A stretch of 52,825 bases of DNA from an uncultured Flavobacteriales bacterium (GTDB taxonomy: Bacteria; Bacteroidota; Bacteroidia; Flavobacteriales_E; Vicingaceae). Positions 3,885 to 43,672 of the stretch are shown piece after piece (the first letter of the stretch is position 1; each line of letters begins with the position of its first letter). The notes beneath the pieces are model-generated. The model did no database searches, was not told where the DNA came from, and saw only the letters and a list, made by a program, of their open reading frames with translations. The stretch spans positions 1 through 52,825 of the forward strand of contig CAJXMH010000021.1 in assembly GCA_913056345.1 (NCBI GenBank), written 5' to 3'. Both the position numbers and the translations under genes were made by a program.

Positions 3885-4680
3885 ACTTAGATGAAATGTT
3901 AAAAGCGAACTTGATTGGTTTGTTCAAATATACTCGTGAATAATCAATATCCACAAGCGCGGGCTGTTCACTTTGCAATTCAAAATGCAATGCCCTAGGT
4001 AGTAACTGACCTTCAATCTCTTGGTATTCACTGAAAGTGCCCATTAAAAAGCGATCAGCGGTATTGTCAGAAAGCAAAAATTCGCGAACCTTAAAGCTAT
4101 TTTGATCAAGCCACAAACTAACTACCTCATCATCTTGACGCTCAATCTTCTCAGGCTTGTCATCTGCTTTTTTGGCTTTTCTTTTCTTTAAGTTTCCAAG
4201 GTAGTAATGCTCTTTATCTATCCCAAACTTAAGTTTGTCATCAGGTTCAAATTCTATGGTGTTACCAAGCAGAATGGCTTGCATAAGATCATAATCTAAA
4301 TCAACATTGAAACGATTTTTGATGTAACGGTTGTCACCCACAAAGTATTCTTTACTAATGCGATTGATCACCTTTACTGTATCAGGTGTGACCATAATTC
4401 GGCCTAGCTCAATCCCCAATAAAGGTGTAATGGAAATCCAAATAATGCTGTCTTTTTTTATGCGAATATTGGCCTTGAAACTATTCTTTTTGGATTTTTG
4501 ATGGAAGGTAAATTCAGCTTTAGCAGAAAATGTATCAAAATCAAATTCATTGGCTTTCATCTGCTCAATGAGATAAAGCGCCTTCTTTCCCTCGAGGGGT
4601 TTTCTGCTTGCACGTTCTTTTTTTCCGCAACTCACAAAAAAAAGCAAGCTAAGTCCTACTAAAAAAACGAACTTTCTCAT
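3865..4680 (-). CDS. DUF4292 family lipoprotein
   Basis: A 271-residue protein with a lipoprotein signal (LFFVSCGKK; lipidated Cys at about residue 18). The rest matches my knowledge of DUF4292, a Bacteroidota family with a LolA/LolB-like beta-sheet fold: an early segment (FSAKAEFTFHQ) followed by alternating strands with SIIWISITPLLGIELGRIMV near residues 85-105. A role in lipid or lipoprotein handling at the outer membrane is inferred from the fold only. Its ATG overlaps the TGA of the upstream TPR gene (ATGA at 4677-4680) and its 3' end overlaps the EnvC-like gene, so all three are probably translationally coupled. Confidence 0.82.
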   Translation of the reverse strand: MRKFVFLVGLSLLFFVSCGKKERASRKPLEGKKALYLIEQMKANEFDFDTFSAKAEFTFHQKSKKNSFKANIRIKKDSIIWISITPLLGIELGRIMVTPDTVKVINRISKEYFVGDNRYIKNRFNVDLDYDLMQAILLGNTIEFEPDDKLKFGIDKEHYYLGNLKKRKAKKADDKPEKIERQDDEVVSLWLDQNSFKVREFLLSDNTADRFLMGTFSEYQEIEGQLLPRALHFELQSEQPALVDIDYSRVYLNKPIKFAFNISSKYEQVFY

Positions 4681-6407
4681 GGCAAACTGTACTTATTGAT
4701 CTTTTGAAGTAATTCCTCAGAAGCCTCCCCTTCAGCTTCACTTGCTTTTTGCCAATATTCAAGGGCTTCCTCTTTGCGGTCTAAAGCAAATAAAATATCT
4801 CCTTTATGCTCTAATAGCACTGCACTTTTATTCCCATCGCTTCTCAATGCTTTGTTGATCCAATCCAAAGCATCTTTATATTCTCCTGTTTGATATAATA
4901 TCCACGCATACGTATCTTGAAAAGAGGCTTGACCCGGAGCCAATTGATTTGACTTCAAGGACATTTGCTTGGCCTTCTCTAAATTTTCTTTCCGCAAGGA
5001 TAGGTAGTAACTGTAATTGTTAAGCACGTAGACACTATTTGGATCTAGTTTGAGTGCCTTCTCATAATAGGCATCTGATTCCGTGTGCTTTTCCATGGCA
5101 TGATAGGCATCTCCCATGGAAGAATAGATCTGTCCTTTCAATAGTTGATTGTCTATCACTAGATCTTGACCAAGATCGAGGTATTCTATTGCTTTCCCAT
5201 ATTGTTTGTCTTGCGATAGACCTAGGCCATAAAGCAAGTAAACCGTAGGCTGGTTGGGAAACAAATTAACTGCCCTTTCGCCGTAGTTTAGTAAAGCAGG
5301 AATATCACCAGATTCAGATAGGATAACTAGTAGTTGGTTCCAAACCGGGAAGCGACTACTATCAAGGGAGATAGTAGTCATATATTCTTCCTTAGCTCGC
5401 TCAGTTTGTTCATCAAAATAGAGAAAGTCTGCTAATAAAGCATGTGATTTAGCGTTATTGGGATGTGCTTTAACAATAGCTTCGCAAAGCGCAATACCTT
5501 CTGCTTTCTTTGCTTGGTTCTTGCTGTTTACTTGGTAGAAACTAAGCAGGTATTTTACCTTACTATCAATTTCCATTTCAGGATTATTAAAGGCTTTTGT
5601 AATTGCTTCTAGGTACTTTGATTGTTCGCCTTCAGTGCGGTAAAACTCAGCCATTGAAAACTGCACGCGGTAATCATTTGGGGCTCTTTCTGCCATTTCT
5701 TGATAGACTTTCAAAGCTTTATCCCGCTTCCCATTGGATATATAAATATCGGCTAACTGCCCATGGTACTTTAGCTCGCCGGGATTTGCCTCGATTAGTT
5801 TTTTAACTTCTCCGGCTGCCCCTTCAACATCATTCTCCGAAAGGTAAATGCTTTGTTTCAACTTGATGATCTCTTCACTTACCCCAATTTCTTCTTCAAT
5901 TTCATTCAAATATTGAATGCTTTCCATTGGCTTGCCTTCATCAAATAAAAACCGTGAAAGCTGGTACTTCAATTCAACCTGATTTGGCTTTAAGTCAATC
6001 AGTTCTTTGTAGATCTTAATGGCTTCCGTTTTATCGGCTTTATTGTCTAAAAAAGAAGCATAAGATAATTTATACCAATAATTCTCAGGATCTAATTCAG
6101 CTGCCAATTTAAATTGCTGGGCTGCAAGTTGTTGTTGCTCCAACTGTAACAATACCAAACCTAACTCATAATTTGCGGCAGGATGAAGCGGCTGCAGCTT
6201 CAAAGCGGCATCAAAGTGAGTTTTAGCCTCAGCATAATTGCCCAAGATCTTGGCTTTTACTCCATCCATAAAGGCTTCGCCAAAAGCAACCTTATCTTTT
6301 TCAGTCAGCTCTTTTAAATTAGCTGACTGCTTTTGCACCGTTTGCTTTGACGAACTGCAAGCAATCAAAAAGGAGAAAATAAGAATGGAATAAAGCCCTT
6401 TATACAT
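4677..6407 (-). CDS. Tetratricopeptide-repeat lipoprotein
   Basis: A 576-residue protein with a lipoprotein signal (FLIACSSSK; Cys at residue 17), followed by about twelve helical TPR units carrying the typical pattern of A at position 8, Y/F at 11 and A at 20, for example in GNYAEAKTHFDAALKLQP. The repeats fill almost the whole chain, so it is a periplasmic or outer-membrane protein-interaction scaffold; no enzyme domain is visible. It lies 5 bp downstream of a sugar nucleotidyltransferase gene and overlaps the DUF4292 gene by 4 bp. The conserved company (flippase, dut, nucleotidyltransferase, TPR, DUF4292, EnvC-like) suggests envelope assembly, but the partner is unknown. Confidence 0.85.
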   Translation of the reverse strand: MYKGLYSILIFSFLIACSSSKQTVQKQSANLKELTEKDKVAFGEAFMDGVKAKILGNYAEAKTHFDAALKLQPLHPAANYELGLVLLQLEQQQLAAQQFKLAAELDPENYWYKLSYASFLDNKADKTEAIKIYKELIDLKPNQVELKYQLSRFLFDEGKPMESIQYLNEIEEEIGVSEEIIKLKQSIYLSENDVEGAAGEVKKLIEANPGELKYHGQLADIYISNGKRDKALKVYQEMAERAPNDYRVQFSMAEFYRTEGEQSKYLEAITKAFNNPEMEIDSKVKYLLSFYQVNSKNQAKKAEGIALCEAIVKAHPNNAKSHALLADFLYFDEQTERAKEEYMTTISLDSSRFPVWNQLLVILSESGDIPALLNYGERAVNLFPNQPTVYLLYGLGLSQDKQYGKAIEYLDLGQDLVIDNQLLKGQIYSSMGDAYHAMEKHTESDAYYEKALKLDPNSVYVLNNYSYYLSLRKENLEKAKQMSLKSNQLAPGQASFQDTYAWILYQTGEYKDALDWINKALRSDGNKSAVLLEHKGDILFALDRKEEALEYWQKASEAEGEASEELLQKINKYSLP

Positions 6408-38289: not shown

Positions 38290-38856
38290 CTAGATTCCGA
38301 GGTTTGTTCTGAAGAGTTTAACAGCAATAGCCAACAGGATTATTCCAAAGACTTTTCTTAGAACGGCTATTCCGCCTTGGCCAAGCACCTTCTCAATTCT
38401 TTTGGAGGATTTAAGTACCGCATACACCACAATAATATTCGCTACGATGGCAACAATTATATTTTGCACTTCATATTCAGCTCTCATAGCAAGCAAAGAA
38501 GTCATTGTGCCTGCACCCGCAATTAAAGGAAAGGCAATCGGCACTATGCTCGCCGTTTCTGGTATATCGTCTTTGTAAAGTTTCACCCCTAGGATCATTT
38601 CAATCGCTAAGAAAAACAAGACAAATGAACCTGCAATCGCAAAACTATTTACATCGATTCCGATCAAGGTTAAGATCGACTCCCCGACAAACAAGAATAA
38701 GATCATTAAAACAAGCGCTACTATTGAGGCTTTTTCTGATTTAATATGTCCTACTTTTTGTCTTAGGTCAATGATAATTGGCACAGAACCAATGATATCG
38801 ATCACCGCAAACAGAACCATCCCTGCGGTAAATATTTCTCTGAAGTTTAATGTCAT
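38290..38856 (-). CDS. MarC family integral membrane protein
   Basis: A 188-residue protein with six hydrophobic helices and the family motifs FAVIDIIGSVPIIIDLRQ near the start and PLIAGAGTM near residue 115. MarC/NAAT-like proteins are inner-membrane proteins of uncertain role; earlier links to multidrug resistance were not upheld, and some relatives carry amino acids. It is a single gene with its own -7 element upstream. Confidence 0.92.
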   Translation of the reverse strand: MTLNFREIFTAGMVLFAVIDIIGSVPIIIDLRQKVGHIKSEKASIVALVLMILFLFVGESILTLIGIDVNSFAIAGSFVLFFLAIEMILGVKLYKDDIPETASIVPIAFPLIAGAGTMTSLLAMRAEYEVQNIIVAIVANIIVVYAVLKSSKRIEKVLGQGGIAVLRKVFGIILLAIAVKLFRTNLGI

Positions 38857-38938: not shown

Positions 38939-40228
38939 TTAAGGTTTTTTACCCCAATCCCTTCGGTTTACCTTTTCGTGAAAACGCCATAGTTTCCGAT
39001 CTAAGTTGCCTACACAATCAAGGTAGTTCATAGGCGAAAAAAGTTTTAAAGGAAAGTAAAAAATGCCATGATCTGGGTGGTCTTCCATAGCCTTGAACAA
39101 GGCCCTTGAATAATAAGGGAAAGGGCGATATAACTGACGGAACTGTTGATCCTTAATAACCAAGGACATGAAAGTATTGCCTCCCCCACCATAAAAAACT
39201 GGCACTTGTACTGCAGAAAAATTGCCGGTAGGCACCCAGCGATAGTGTGAGAAAAAAGTTGACGTATCAGGCTCGATCAGATCAAACTCAGCCGTGTAAA
39301 TGTGCTTTTTGTTTCTCAGGATAATATTACTGTCAACTTGTATGCTGTCATCCACAAAAATTCCTTCATAGTTACCTTGTCTTACTTTCCATGATTTATC
39401 GCTAGTAAAAAAGCGCACTTCACTAAAACGATACCTGCTTTTAAAAGCCTTGATCAAAGAGATATTCTCAATACGCTGCTGGCGTTCTTTTTCTCTTGCT
39501 TTATAGAATAAGCCTTTTCGCTTTAAAGCCTCGATAGTTGGTTTAGCGGTTTTTAAACGCACCAAAAGCGCACCATCTTTCAATGATTTGATCTGTCTCG
39601 CAGTAATCCGCTTTCTAATTTTTCGTGGGCTCTCTTTATTGGTTCGAGGTTGATTAATTCGGTAAGATAAACCTAGCTGAAAATTTCTGCTTTGACTGTT
39701 AAAAGCAGGTAATATAAAATTGGCGGTCATGCGCCATGAGGGCATTAACTTTAATTCGAATCCCATAAGGAGATTGAGCTGCCTGCTACGTTCTTCTGCA
39801 ATTGCATCATCTATTCTGGTTCCTTCAGAACCTCCGCTACCTCTGTATTGCAGGTTTCTGTTGATGGGAAAGTCAACTGCCAAGCCCGCATTTAAAAACA
39901 AGTCGTCTATTTTATATTGCGGATACAATTGAAGGTCAATACCTGTTTGTTGCAAACTAACCGTTGAACTAAAAACAGAGGACTTCATAGAAAAAAAACC
40001 TGCACCTTTAAGACCAAGCCTACGGTTAAGCACATAAGTAGCATCTACCCCTGAAAATGGTCGTGCACCTGAGCTCAATCGGTTATCTCTGATATCGAGC
40101 TTGCTATAGTTAGCGCCTAAATTGACCCCAATCAAGAATTTTCCTTCTTCCCAAAGAGGTTCTTGAGCTTGCAAACAAACGGCTGCAAACAAACAACAAG
40201 AGAAAGTAAAAATTCGCCTTAGCATCAT
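38939..40228 (-). CDS. Outer-membrane-type protein with conserved C-terminal domain, paralogue 1
   Basis: About 429 residues from the ATG at 40228 (a TTG nine bases upstream is also in frame). A signal peptide ending in LQAQ leads into about 170 residues of amphipathic beta-strands, as in a small outer-membrane barrel (GKFLIGVNLGANYSKL). A charged helical linker (about 195-255) and a C-terminal domain follow. Linker and C-terminal domain are shared with the next gene upstream: LKDGALLVRLKTAKPTIEAL, then FKSRYRFSEVRFF, FSHYR, and VIKDQQFRQLYRPFPYYSR. I recognise no named family. It sits 90 bp downstream of its paralogue and is probably on the same transcript. Confidence 0.72.
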   Translation of the reverse strand: MMLRRIFTFSCCLFAAVCLQAQEPLWEEGKFLIGVNLGANYSKLDIRDNRLSSGARPFSGVDATYVLNRRLGLKGAGFFSMKSSVFSSTVSLQQTGIDLQLYPQYKIDDLFLNAGLAVDFPINRNLQYRGSGGSEGTRIDDAIAEERSRQLNLLMGFELKLMPSWRMTANFILPAFNSQSRNFQLGLSYRINQPRTNKESPRKIRKRITARQIKSLKDGALLVRLKTAKPTIEALKRKGLFYKAREKERQQRIENISLIKAFKSRYRFSEVRFFTSDKSWKVRQGNYEGIFVDDSIQVDSNIILRNKKHIYTAEFDLIEPDTSTFFSHYRWVPTGNFSAVQVPVFYGGGGNTFMSLVIKDQQFRQLYRPFPYYSRALFKAMEDHPDHGIFYFPLKLFSPMNYLDCVGNLDRKLWRFHEKVNRRDWGKKP

Positions 40229-40318
40229 CTCTATCAATCCTAATACACCATATAAGATGCATTAAGGTAGCAATTTGTTGCAAACTAATAAATGTTTGCC
40301 CTTTTTCTAAGCTACTGC

Positions 40319-41545
40319 TTAATAGAATCTATACAATCTTCGGTTGAGCTTTTTAATTGCACTTAAAAAAGTGGTTTTTGAAAGTAACAAAGGAATAGGA
40401 CCTAAAAATAAAAACTGCTCAGGGTGTTTTTTAAGCGAAGGCATGATCATCCGCTGGTAGTTAGGGAATGGTTTGTTAAGCTGAACAAAGTTTTGATCCT
40501 TGATCACAAAGGCTTCGAAATTAAGATCCGGTGAACCGTAAAAGAGCGGAGCTAAACTATCAGAGGCTGCAACTCTACTTCTATAATGCCTAAAGTATTT
40601 AATCGTATCAGCTTTCAAGTTTGTCAATTCAGCTGTAAATACTTTCTGCCCCTTTGATGGCGCAAAACTTACTGTTTCCTCAAATTTTTCGTCCAAGAAA
40701 TATTGCCCCCAATTTCCTTCTTTCACTTTTTTTGAATGGTGACTGTAGAAAAAATACAAGTCACTAAAATCATACTTCATTTTAAAGGCCTGCATAATGG
40801 CATCATTTTCTTTTGCTTGCCTTGATTCAAGTCTTGCCGCTTTTGCCTCTCTTCCGGCTTTTTTGAGGGCTTCAATACTTTTATTGAGCGTTTTGAGTCT
40901 CACTAGTAAAACTCCATCTTTAAGCTGCTGAATCTGTGACTTTGAGGCTTGTCTCTTAACTCTCCGGTAAGAGGGGTTTTCCCTGCCCTTGTTGATCGCA
41001 TACAAAAAGCCCAACTGAGCGATTCTGGGCCCATTATTTTGCAGTGATATCGCAGAACTGAGCTGCATTCTAAGCCGATAATCTAACTTTAATTCTACCC
41101 CAAGGTAGGCAGCCAGGTTTGAATTTGGAAGATCATCAAGTAAAACAGACGGAACGGCTTCATTCACTGAATTTTGAAAGCGCTGATTGGAGATCATCTG
41201 ATACTGAGCTCCTCCAAATACGCTGAAATCATCTATTGAATAATGAGCCGAAAGCGAAACCGAGACCCCTCGGTTAAGTTGGGTAAGTTGATCTAGTCGA
41301 GCACGGTTGTTGAATGCCCCTAAACCAATTTGGTAAGAAAGTTTTCTTTGAGGATTAAAAAGCGTGTTAAGTCCTACTTCATGGCCAGTTGCAGACCGAT
41401 AGTTCAAGTTTTTATACTGAAAGCTTGATGTATTAAGTCCTGCAAAAGCTCGGATAGAAAAAGCGGTATCTGATTGAGCGCTTAGTCGATAAAAGCAGAT
41501 AATGTTGAGCAGAATAAAGAAGGAAAAAGAAATGCTTAACTTCAA
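40319..41545 (-). CDS. Outer-membrane-type protein with conserved C-terminal domain, paralogue 2
   Basis: A 408-residue protein with a signal peptide ending in RLSAQ, about 170 residues of beta-strands (YQIGLGAFNNRARL), a helical linker, and the same C-terminal domain as its downstream paralogue (LKDGVLLVRLKTLNKSIEAL, FKMKYDFSDLYFF, FRHYR, VIKDQNFVQLNKPFPNYQR). The two are diverged, so the duplication is old. The start is TTG at 41545, touching the TAA of RNase R, which implies translation coupled to rnr. Function unknown; an outer-membrane protein with a periplasmic or surface C-terminal domain is inferred. Confidence 0.72.
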   Translation of the reverse strand: MKLSISFSFFILLNIICFYRLSAQSDTAFSIRAFAGLNTSSFQYKNLNYRSATGHEVGLNTLFNPQRKLSYQIGLGAFNNRARLDQLTQLNRGVSVSLSAHYSIDDFSVFGGAQYQMISNQRFQNSVNEAVPSVLLDDLPNSNLAAYLGVELKLDYRLRMQLSSAISLQNNGPRIAQLGFLYAINKGRENPSYRRVKRQASKSQIQQLKDGVLLVRLKTLNKSIEALKKAGREAKAARLESRQAKENDAIMQAFKMKYDFSDLYFFYSHHSKKVKEGNWGQYFLDEKFEETVSFAPSKGQKVFTAELTNLKADTIKYFRHYRSRVAASDSLAPLFYGSPDLNFEAFVIKDQNFVQLNKPFPNYQRMIMPSLKKHPEQFLFLGPIPLLLSKTTFLSAIKKLNRRLYRFY

Positions 41546-43672
41546 TTAATAATCTTCTAATAGTTCAAAATCGAGCTGTTTTTTAGAAAGGTCTGCCTTT
41601 AACACTTTCACCGTTAGTTCATCTCCAATCCGATAGATCTTGCCACTTCGCTTTCCTTCAAGGGCAAAATTATCCTTGTTAAATTGATAAAAGTCGTCTC
41701 CTAGGTTTCGCATGCGGATCAAGCCTTCACAATGCACCCCATCTAGTTCTACAAACAACCCAAATTCACTAACACCTGAAACTACGCCTCCGTATATTTC
41801 CCCTTCTTTGTCTTGCATGAATTTAACTTGCATAAACTTGATGCTTGCCCTTTCAGCTTCTGTGGCTAACTTTTCTCTTTGCGAACAATGTTTGCATTGC
41901 TCTTCTAACTCCTCTTGGTTTACGGCTTTGCCTTGATCAAGATAATGCTGCAACAAGCGGTGTACCATTACATCTGGATAGCGCCTAATGGGTGAAGTAA
42001 AATGAGAGTAGAAACGAAAACCCAGTCCATAATGACCTACATTTTCAGTGGAGTATTCGGCCTTAGCCATAGTTCTAATCGCCAGCTGAGAAATCAATTG
42101 CTCTTCAGCTTTACCCTCCACATCTGCCATTAACCTGTTCATGGTTTTGCTAATTCCTTTGGGAGAAGTAGTGTCTATTCGGTAGCCAAATTTTTTAATG
42201 AACTGACTAAAGGTTTGGAGTTTCTCAGGGTCAGGATTGTCGTGAATTCGGTAAACAAATGGTTTGGCTTTCTGCTTTGCTCCAATGAAGGTGGCCACTT
42301 GCTTATTTGCCAGCAACATAAACTCTTCGATCAACTTATTGGCGTCTTTTTGTTCTTTTACAAATACGCCGAGTGGCTCGCCCTTTTGATCAAGCTTAAA
42401 TTTCACTTCTAAGGAGTGAAAGTCAATTGCTCCTTTTTTGAACCGGTCTTTTCTTAGCTGTTTTGCTAAGCGATCTAAGGTTAACACTTCTTCTTTTAAT
42501 TCACCTTCTCCGCCTTCAATCAACTTTTGGGCTTCATCATAGGTAAACCTGCGGTCTGAATGGATTACAGTTCTACCAAACCATTGGTTAATGATCTTGG
42601 TGCTCTCGTCCAATTCAAAAATGGCTGAAAAGCAATATTTATCTTCATTTGGCCGCAGAGAGCAAGCAACATTTGAAAGCACTTCGGGTAGCATGGGCAC
42701 AACACGATCAACCAAATAAACCGAGGTAGCCCGGTCATAAGCCTCCTGATCTAACTGACTGTTTGGTTTTAAGTAATGGCTTACATCTGCAATGTGTACC
42801 CCAATCTCCCAATTTCCATTTTTAAGCCGCTGAAGGGATAAAGCATCGTCAAAATCTTTAGCATCATCAGGATCGATGGTAAAAGTAGTGACCTTTCGAT
42901 AATCCTTTCGCTTTTTTATTTCTGTCTCTTTAATGCTGACGTCTATATTTTCAGCCTCTTTCTGAATATGACTAGGGAAATCTGCAGGCAAACCATACTC
43001 AGCCAAAATAGCGTGCATTTCTGTTTCATTTTCTCCAGGTTTACCCAATACCTTGATTACCTCGCCAAAAGGAGAATCAACATCTGAGGGCCAGTCCAAC
43101 ATTTTAACAATCGCTTTATCACCATGCTGAGCACCGTTCATTTTATCAAGCGAAATAAAAAGGTCTACAGGCATGCGCTTACTATCAGGCACTAGAAAAG
43201 CATATTTCAACGACTTTTCGATGGTTCCTACAAATTCCGTTTTAGCTCGTTCTATCACCTTTTCAATCTTCCCGATCGGTTTACCGTTTCGCTTTACCTT
43301 TATTAGAACCACCTCTACCAAATCTCCGTGCAAAGCATTATCCAGATCTCTTTCGCCTACGTAAATATCTTCAGGCATTCCCTCAACCCTTATGTAAGCA
43401 CTTCCGCTCTGTGTCATATCTACATGACCTATCAACTGTTTTAAATTAGCACTAGAAGGTTCTAACTTAAATTTGCCATGGTGCTCTTCAACTAGTTTTT
43501 CTTGATCAACCAAGTCGTAAAGTATTTTATTGAGTAGTTTCTTTTTTGAAGTTTGCTTTACATTCAGCCGACGGGCAACTTGCTTATAATTAAAAGTTTG
43601 GGTAGGGTCTTTTCTAAATACCTCTAATATACTTTGGTGTAAGGAATTTGAGGGGTTTTTCTTTTTACTCAT
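41546..43672 (-). CDS. rnr: Ribonuclease R
   Basis: A 708-residue exoribonuclease with the full domain order: N-terminal winged helix (residues about 8-60), two cold-shock domains, the RNB catalytic domain starting TIDPDDAKDFDDALS with the Mg-binding aspartates, and a C-terminal S1 domain (GVVSGVSEFGLFVELDGVHC). It degrades structured RNA 3' to 5' in the cytoplasm. The Lys-rich tail of many enterobacterial homologues is absent. It is the first gene before the two tandem paralogues. Confidence 0.96.
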   Translation of the reverse strand: MSKKKNPSNSLHQSILEVFRKDPTQTFNYKQVARRLNVKQTSKKKLLNKILYDLVDQEKLVEEHHGKFKLEPSSANLKQLIGHVDMTQSGSAYIRVEGMPEDIYVGERDLDNALHGDLVEVVLIKVKRNGKPIGKIEKVIERAKTEFVGTIEKSLKYAFLVPDSKRMPVDLFISLDKMNGAQHGDKAIVKMLDWPSDVDSPFGEVIKVLGKPGENETEMHAILAEYGLPADFPSHIQKEAENIDVSIKETEIKKRKDYRKVTTFTIDPDDAKDFDDALSLQRLKNGNWEIGVHIADVSHYLKPNSQLDQEAYDRATSVYLVDRVVPMLPEVLSNVACSLRPNEDKYCFSAIFELDESTKIINQWFGRTVIHSDRRFTYDEAQKLIEGGEGELKEEVLTLDRLAKQLRKDRFKKGAIDFHSLEVKFKLDQKGEPLGVFVKEQKDANKLIEEFMLLANKQVATFIGAKQKAKPFVYRIHDNPDPEKLQTFSQFIKKFGYRIDTTSPKGISKTMNRLMADVEGKAEEQLISQLAIRTMAKAEYSTENVGHYGLGFRFYSHFTSPIRRYPDVMVHRLLQHYLDQGKAVNQEELEEQCKHCSQREKLATEAERASIKFMQVKFMQDKEGEIYGGVVSGVSEFGLFVELDGVHCEGLIRMRNLGDDFYQFNKDNFALEGKRSGKIYRIGDELTVKVLKADLSKKQLDFELLEDY

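Follow-up and report, generated by a model that had tools for sequence, protein, structure and literature searches.

The window, a 52,825-nucleotide stretch from an uncultured Flavobacteriales bacterium, carries two adjacent minus-strand genes whose products combine a predicted outer-membrane barrel with an unnamed C-terminal domain (CTD): P1 (38939..40237, 432 residues as listed) and P2 (40319..41545, 408 residues, with a TTG start). Both were taken from the open reading frame list and compared by BLASTP, which aligned them at 32% identity over 422 columns (E = 4e-56), identifying them as tandem paralogues. A sequence-only reading of this DNA had described two adjacent secreted paralogues sharing the motifs DG.LLVRLKT, Y.FS...FF, HYR and VIKDQ.F.QL..PFP.Y; both reading frames lie where it placed them, and all of the motifs are found in the pair. 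The neighbours, considered for synteny only, are rnr, encoding RNase R, upstream (41546..43672, minus strand) and a gene for a MarC-family membrane protein downstream (38290..38856, minus strand), with lipA also downstream of the pair on the same strand.

The TTG of P2 directly follows the rnr stop codon, as had been noted from the letters alone, and lies in the same frame (GAA GAT TAT TAA TTG AAG); because that stop closes the frame, it is the sole start that preserves the signal peptide. The zero gap between the TAA and the TTG (window 41543–41548) could favour termination–reinitiation; in the relatives read, rnr and the barrel–CTD gene are separated by 23–51 bases or overlap slightly. For P1, the true start is probably an ATG at 40228 or 40225, which lies three or four codons downstream of the listed TTG. 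A promoter scan of the stretch between P1 and P2 gave background levels, and a mobile-element origin was rejected, as tblastn found no match in phage or plasmid collections.

A full-length AlphaFold2 model of P2 (408 residues; pLDDT 85, pTM 0.70) shows a signal helix, eight long strands spanning residues 29–183, and the CTD. The signal peptide (residues 1–24; 41474..41545, minus strand) is a hydrophobic N-terminal helix ending in SAQ, modelled as a helix over residues 3–22 at low pLDDT. The eight-stranded, OmpA-type barrel (40997..41461, minus strand) superimposes on OmpA with a Z score of 16.2 and an rmsd of 2.8 over 152 residues, and it also aligns to NspA, OmpW and OprF. In P1, the signal peptide and barrel half (39659..40204, minus strand) pass the gathering cut-off of the Pfam model PF13505 (OMP_b-brl; 30.4 versus 28.7 bits); P2 matches neither PF13505 nor PF13568. 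In OmpA-type barrels with eight strands, the N- and C-termini are established to lie on the periplasmic side, and the CTD is therefore expected to face that compartment.

The CTD occupies residues 193–408 of P2 (40322..40969, minus strand), where it begins with a helix at residue 193, and the corresponding stretch of P1 (38966..39643, minus strand). Modelled alone from 63 sequences with AlphaFold2, the P1 CTD is a mixed α/β domain of about 200 residues (pLDDT 92, pTM 0.85). The two CTDs of the window are 37% identical and the two barrel halves 21%, in keeping with the earlier description of diverged N-terminal and matching C-terminal halves; the separate helical linker of that description is instead the first helix of the CTD. 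A comparison of 13 relatives gave the CTD the higher identity in every one of the 78 pairs, with means of 41% for the CTD and 24% for the barrel.

The CTD represents a domain family that is new and has no name. Neither Pfam nor NCBIfam holds a model that matched it in P1 or P2, and 63 homologues searched against the same two collections gave scattered single weak matches only. A PDB sequence search with the 63-row CTD profile returned no match up to E = 1, and a Foldseek search of the CTD model against the PDB, one of the checks proposed in the sequence-only reading, returned nothing at E ≤ 0.001, the best E value being 1.5. These results uphold the initial statement that the domain could not be assigned to a family, and the literature searches made turned up no description of it.

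The closest known kind of protein is one in which, as in OmpA and OprF, a barrel is followed by a periplasmic domain; the layout is known and the attached domain is new. Like OmpA and OprF, the window proteins are predicted to combine an N-terminal eight-stranded barrel and a periplasmic domain in a single chain; unlike in those proteins, the periplasmic domain is not OmpA_C and usually occurs as a stand-alone protein. PF00691 (OmpA_C) was found in neither P1 nor P2 (E up to 10), nor in the 63 CTDs or 28 fused proteins scanned. The small Bacteroidota barrels described by PF13505 and PF13568 are a second point of comparison, since the P1 barrel scores above the PF13505 threshold and roughly half of the representative fused proteins match these models (PF13568 in 16 and PF13505 in 14 of 28). 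Those models, however, end at the barrel, whereas the conserved part of proteins of the window type is the CTD.

The domain is widespread in Bacteroidia, and homologues thus exist well outside this genome. A single scan across 84,980 species genomes yielded 59 CTD loci, all titled Bacteroidota and mostly uncultured, from Flavobacteriales, Crocinitomicaceae, Cryomorphaceae, Bacteroidales and Saprospiraceae. A profile search found the CTD in 81 of 395 sampled Bacteroidia genomes and 46 of 196 genera, normally in one copy each, a figure that reflects a broader profile applied to a class-wide draw (a first, narrow profile on a phylum-wide sample gave 3 of 395). The 136 non-redundant CTD proteins include 91 with a short N-terminus and 41 with a long one, and the latter, with one exception, look like small barrels or fragments of barrels. 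All 95 short-N-terminus proteins scored have an export-type hydrophobic segment and a few have a lipobox, according to a simple pattern that also flagged a few doubtful cases. The commonest form of the CTD is therefore an exported stand-alone protein of about 200 residues. On the CTD tree, the fused or stand-alone state changes six times by parsimony, a count that is slightly high because one row scored as stand-alone (L009) is a broken fused gene; well-supported branches force three changes. The barrel fusion has therefore been gained or lost repeatedly.

No conserved gene partner was found in the neighbourhoods of the stand-alone and barrel forms. Stand-alone CTD genes have various neighbours, among them metG-like genes (at ten loci) and rarA-like genes, and these are constant within a lineage and not between lineages. 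In the metG-like group (L077, L079–L081, L084, L085, L087, L090, L097, L098), the CTD gene follows the metG-like gene and, as called, overlaps it by 20 bases in eight of the ten loci and by 47 in two; the overlap may reflect translational coupling, or the CTD gene start may have been called too early. In several lineages (L057, L059, L074, L082, L094, L096 and L104), a stand-alone CTD gene has, within a few kilobases, a gene for a C1-type, papain-like peptidase that by eye resembles bleomycin hydrolase; the two are directly adjacent only in L104.

The neighbourhood of rnr is an inherited position and gives no evidence of a functional unit. Within the family of the window genome, a search recovered rnr in 43 of 46 genomes, and in the 38 neighbourhoods read, barrel–CTD genes lie downstream of it only in one subclade. 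Among the 12 genomes of the family whose rnr is closest (at least 72% identity, the window genome included), rnr is followed by zero, one or two barrel–CTD genes and then by lipA, with marC not always present. No barrel–CTD gene is present in G036, G033 or G011, and G021 and G030 have a broken one. The broken copies (L009 in G021; L011 and L022 in G030) occupy the same position after rnr and show in-frame stops and split frames, which suggest recent loss. The other family genomes read have rnr beside unrelated neighbours or leading directly to marC (G019, G009). According to the trees, in which the P2 side is moderately supported, the P1 and P2 types had separated before at least G000 and G004, and probably G007, diverged. 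Most rnr genes of the family thus lack a barrel–CTD gene, and elsewhere the CTD adjoins unrelated genes such as metG; a functional link to RNase R was rejected. Because close relatives have repeatedly lost barrel–CTD genes or carry broken ones, the function of these genes is dispensable.

One CTD protein, the only one of its form among the 136, has a different kind of anchor. In genome G455 (L218, 3433–4611), this protein begins with a charged, cytosolic segment, continues with one transmembrane helix and ends in the CTD; the TTG start of its gene abuts the stop of an ECF sigma factor gene (4612–5151) that matches Sigma70_r2, Sigma70_r4_2 and TIGR02937. No named anti-sigma domain was found in the membrane protein with Pfam or NCBIfam. 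In sister genomes, the proteins encoded after the closest sigma genes share this layout and differ at their C-terminal ends, which are barrel-like in L232, L233 and UBA5081 (by eye) and consist of PD40 repeats in L235. The CTD therefore stands where a putative anti-sigma factor, which is what we take the L218 protein to be, has its outer module. As in known pairs of ECF sigma and transmembrane anti-sigma factors, the CTD of G455 is the outer part of a one-helix membrane protein encoded immediately next to an ECF sigma factor; the window proteins, in contrast, have no transmembrane anti-sigma segment and no adjacent sigma gene. P1 and P2 themselves do not qualify as transmembrane anti-sigma factors, as they start with signal peptides and have rnr, marC and lipA as neighbours.

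The wider operon recurs in the family (L224–L235; e.g., L218 3433–5151 and L050 180–3200) and comprises genes for a PKD-repeat protein with a T9SS-like tail, an ECF sigma factor and a one-helix membrane protein. The cytosolic ends of the membrane proteins are alike and their outer ends vary (barrel-like, PD40, CTD and, by eye, SPOR-like in L234). An ECF sigma gene upstream of rnr in UBA5081 (L050) was considered as a clue to the barrel genes and rejected, because in other genomes its close homologues adjoin the same PKD-protein and anti-sigma genes at different places.

Taken together, we consider it rather probable that the CTD is a periplasmic binding or sensing module with exchangeable membrane anchors, the anchor in the window being an outer-membrane barrel. 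This explanation draws on computed domain boundaries, the eight predicted strands, export signals, repeated fusion, CTD conservation and the sigma fusion of one genome. The periplasmic location, inferred from the even number of predicted strands and from the inner-membrane form, is well supported. Attached to a plain signal peptide, the CTD would be a soluble periplasmic protein; it is also carried behind a lipobox, on a small outer-membrane barrel (a fusion made several times) and on a transmembrane protein linked to an ECF sigma factor. In P1 and P2, the barrel would most likely serve as an anchor whose sequence is free to drift, and the CTD would make a conserved contact with a periplasmic partner, either a protein or a cell-wall component. 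The sequence-only reading had argued from conservation over diverged barrels to a distinct function, possibly sensing or binding at the outer membrane; that conservation is confirmed, and the sensing or binding is a step that we infer. For the CTD, binding or sensing within the envelope is the most parsimonious interpretation.

A role as a cell-wall tether, in which the CTD would bind peptidoglycan as OmpA_C does and fix the outer membrane to the wall without signalling, is unlikely. It has the OmpA-like layout of barrel and periplasmic domain in its favour and would suit both barrel and lipoprotein anchors; however, no CTD member scanned matched PF00691, the commonest form is exported without an evident membrane anchor and could not tether, and the sigma-linked inner-membrane form fits sensing better. 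Equally improbable is a protein–protein assembly domain related to the α/β domains of HpaA, FlgT, CsgG and LptE, which would help to build an envelope complex. In a second look with VIA-align, these proteins were among 678 chains compared with the CTD (Z of 5.0, 4.7 and 4.4 for HpaA, 3.8 for FlgT, 3.5 for CsgG and 3.1 for LptE), and the order of strands and helices is similar by eye. That several of the listed proteins are periplasmic and associated with the outer membrane is suggestive, but all of the scores are within the range of common arrangements, and the top rows, 3brc (6.3) and HcgB (5.1), are archaeal proteins of other kinds. Profile–profile comparison (hhalign) of the CTD with Bacteroidia LptE and CsgG likewise gave a probability of 2.6% at most. 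That the CTD is an enzyme domain is very improbable, for although it is compact and α/β, with near-invariant polar residues (the R of LLVRL, an N of the long helix and an S after VYFF), conservation is highest at hydrophobic or structural positions (LLVRL, N, VYFF, PFP). No motif for a ligand, for catalysis or for a metal is evident, the family shares no catalytic set (His, Cys, Asp and Glu are nowhere invariant), and Foldseek gave no confident match to an enzyme family.

The binding or sensing module may, more tentatively, be an undescribed family of Bacteroidia periplasmic sensors that moves among soluble, lipoprotein, barrel and sigma-linked inner-membrane anchors; the barrel and soluble forms might report an envelope ligand or stress, and the sigma-linked form might do so directly. 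The domain is absent from Pfam and NCBIfam, yet it occurs in about one fifth of the sampled Bacteroidia genomes and has a confident predicted structure, and its sigma-factor-linked copy offers a testable clue to function. A CTD profile would annotate many exported proteins now called hypothetical and also some that are labelled 'outer membrane beta-barrel' although the barrel is not what is conserved in them.
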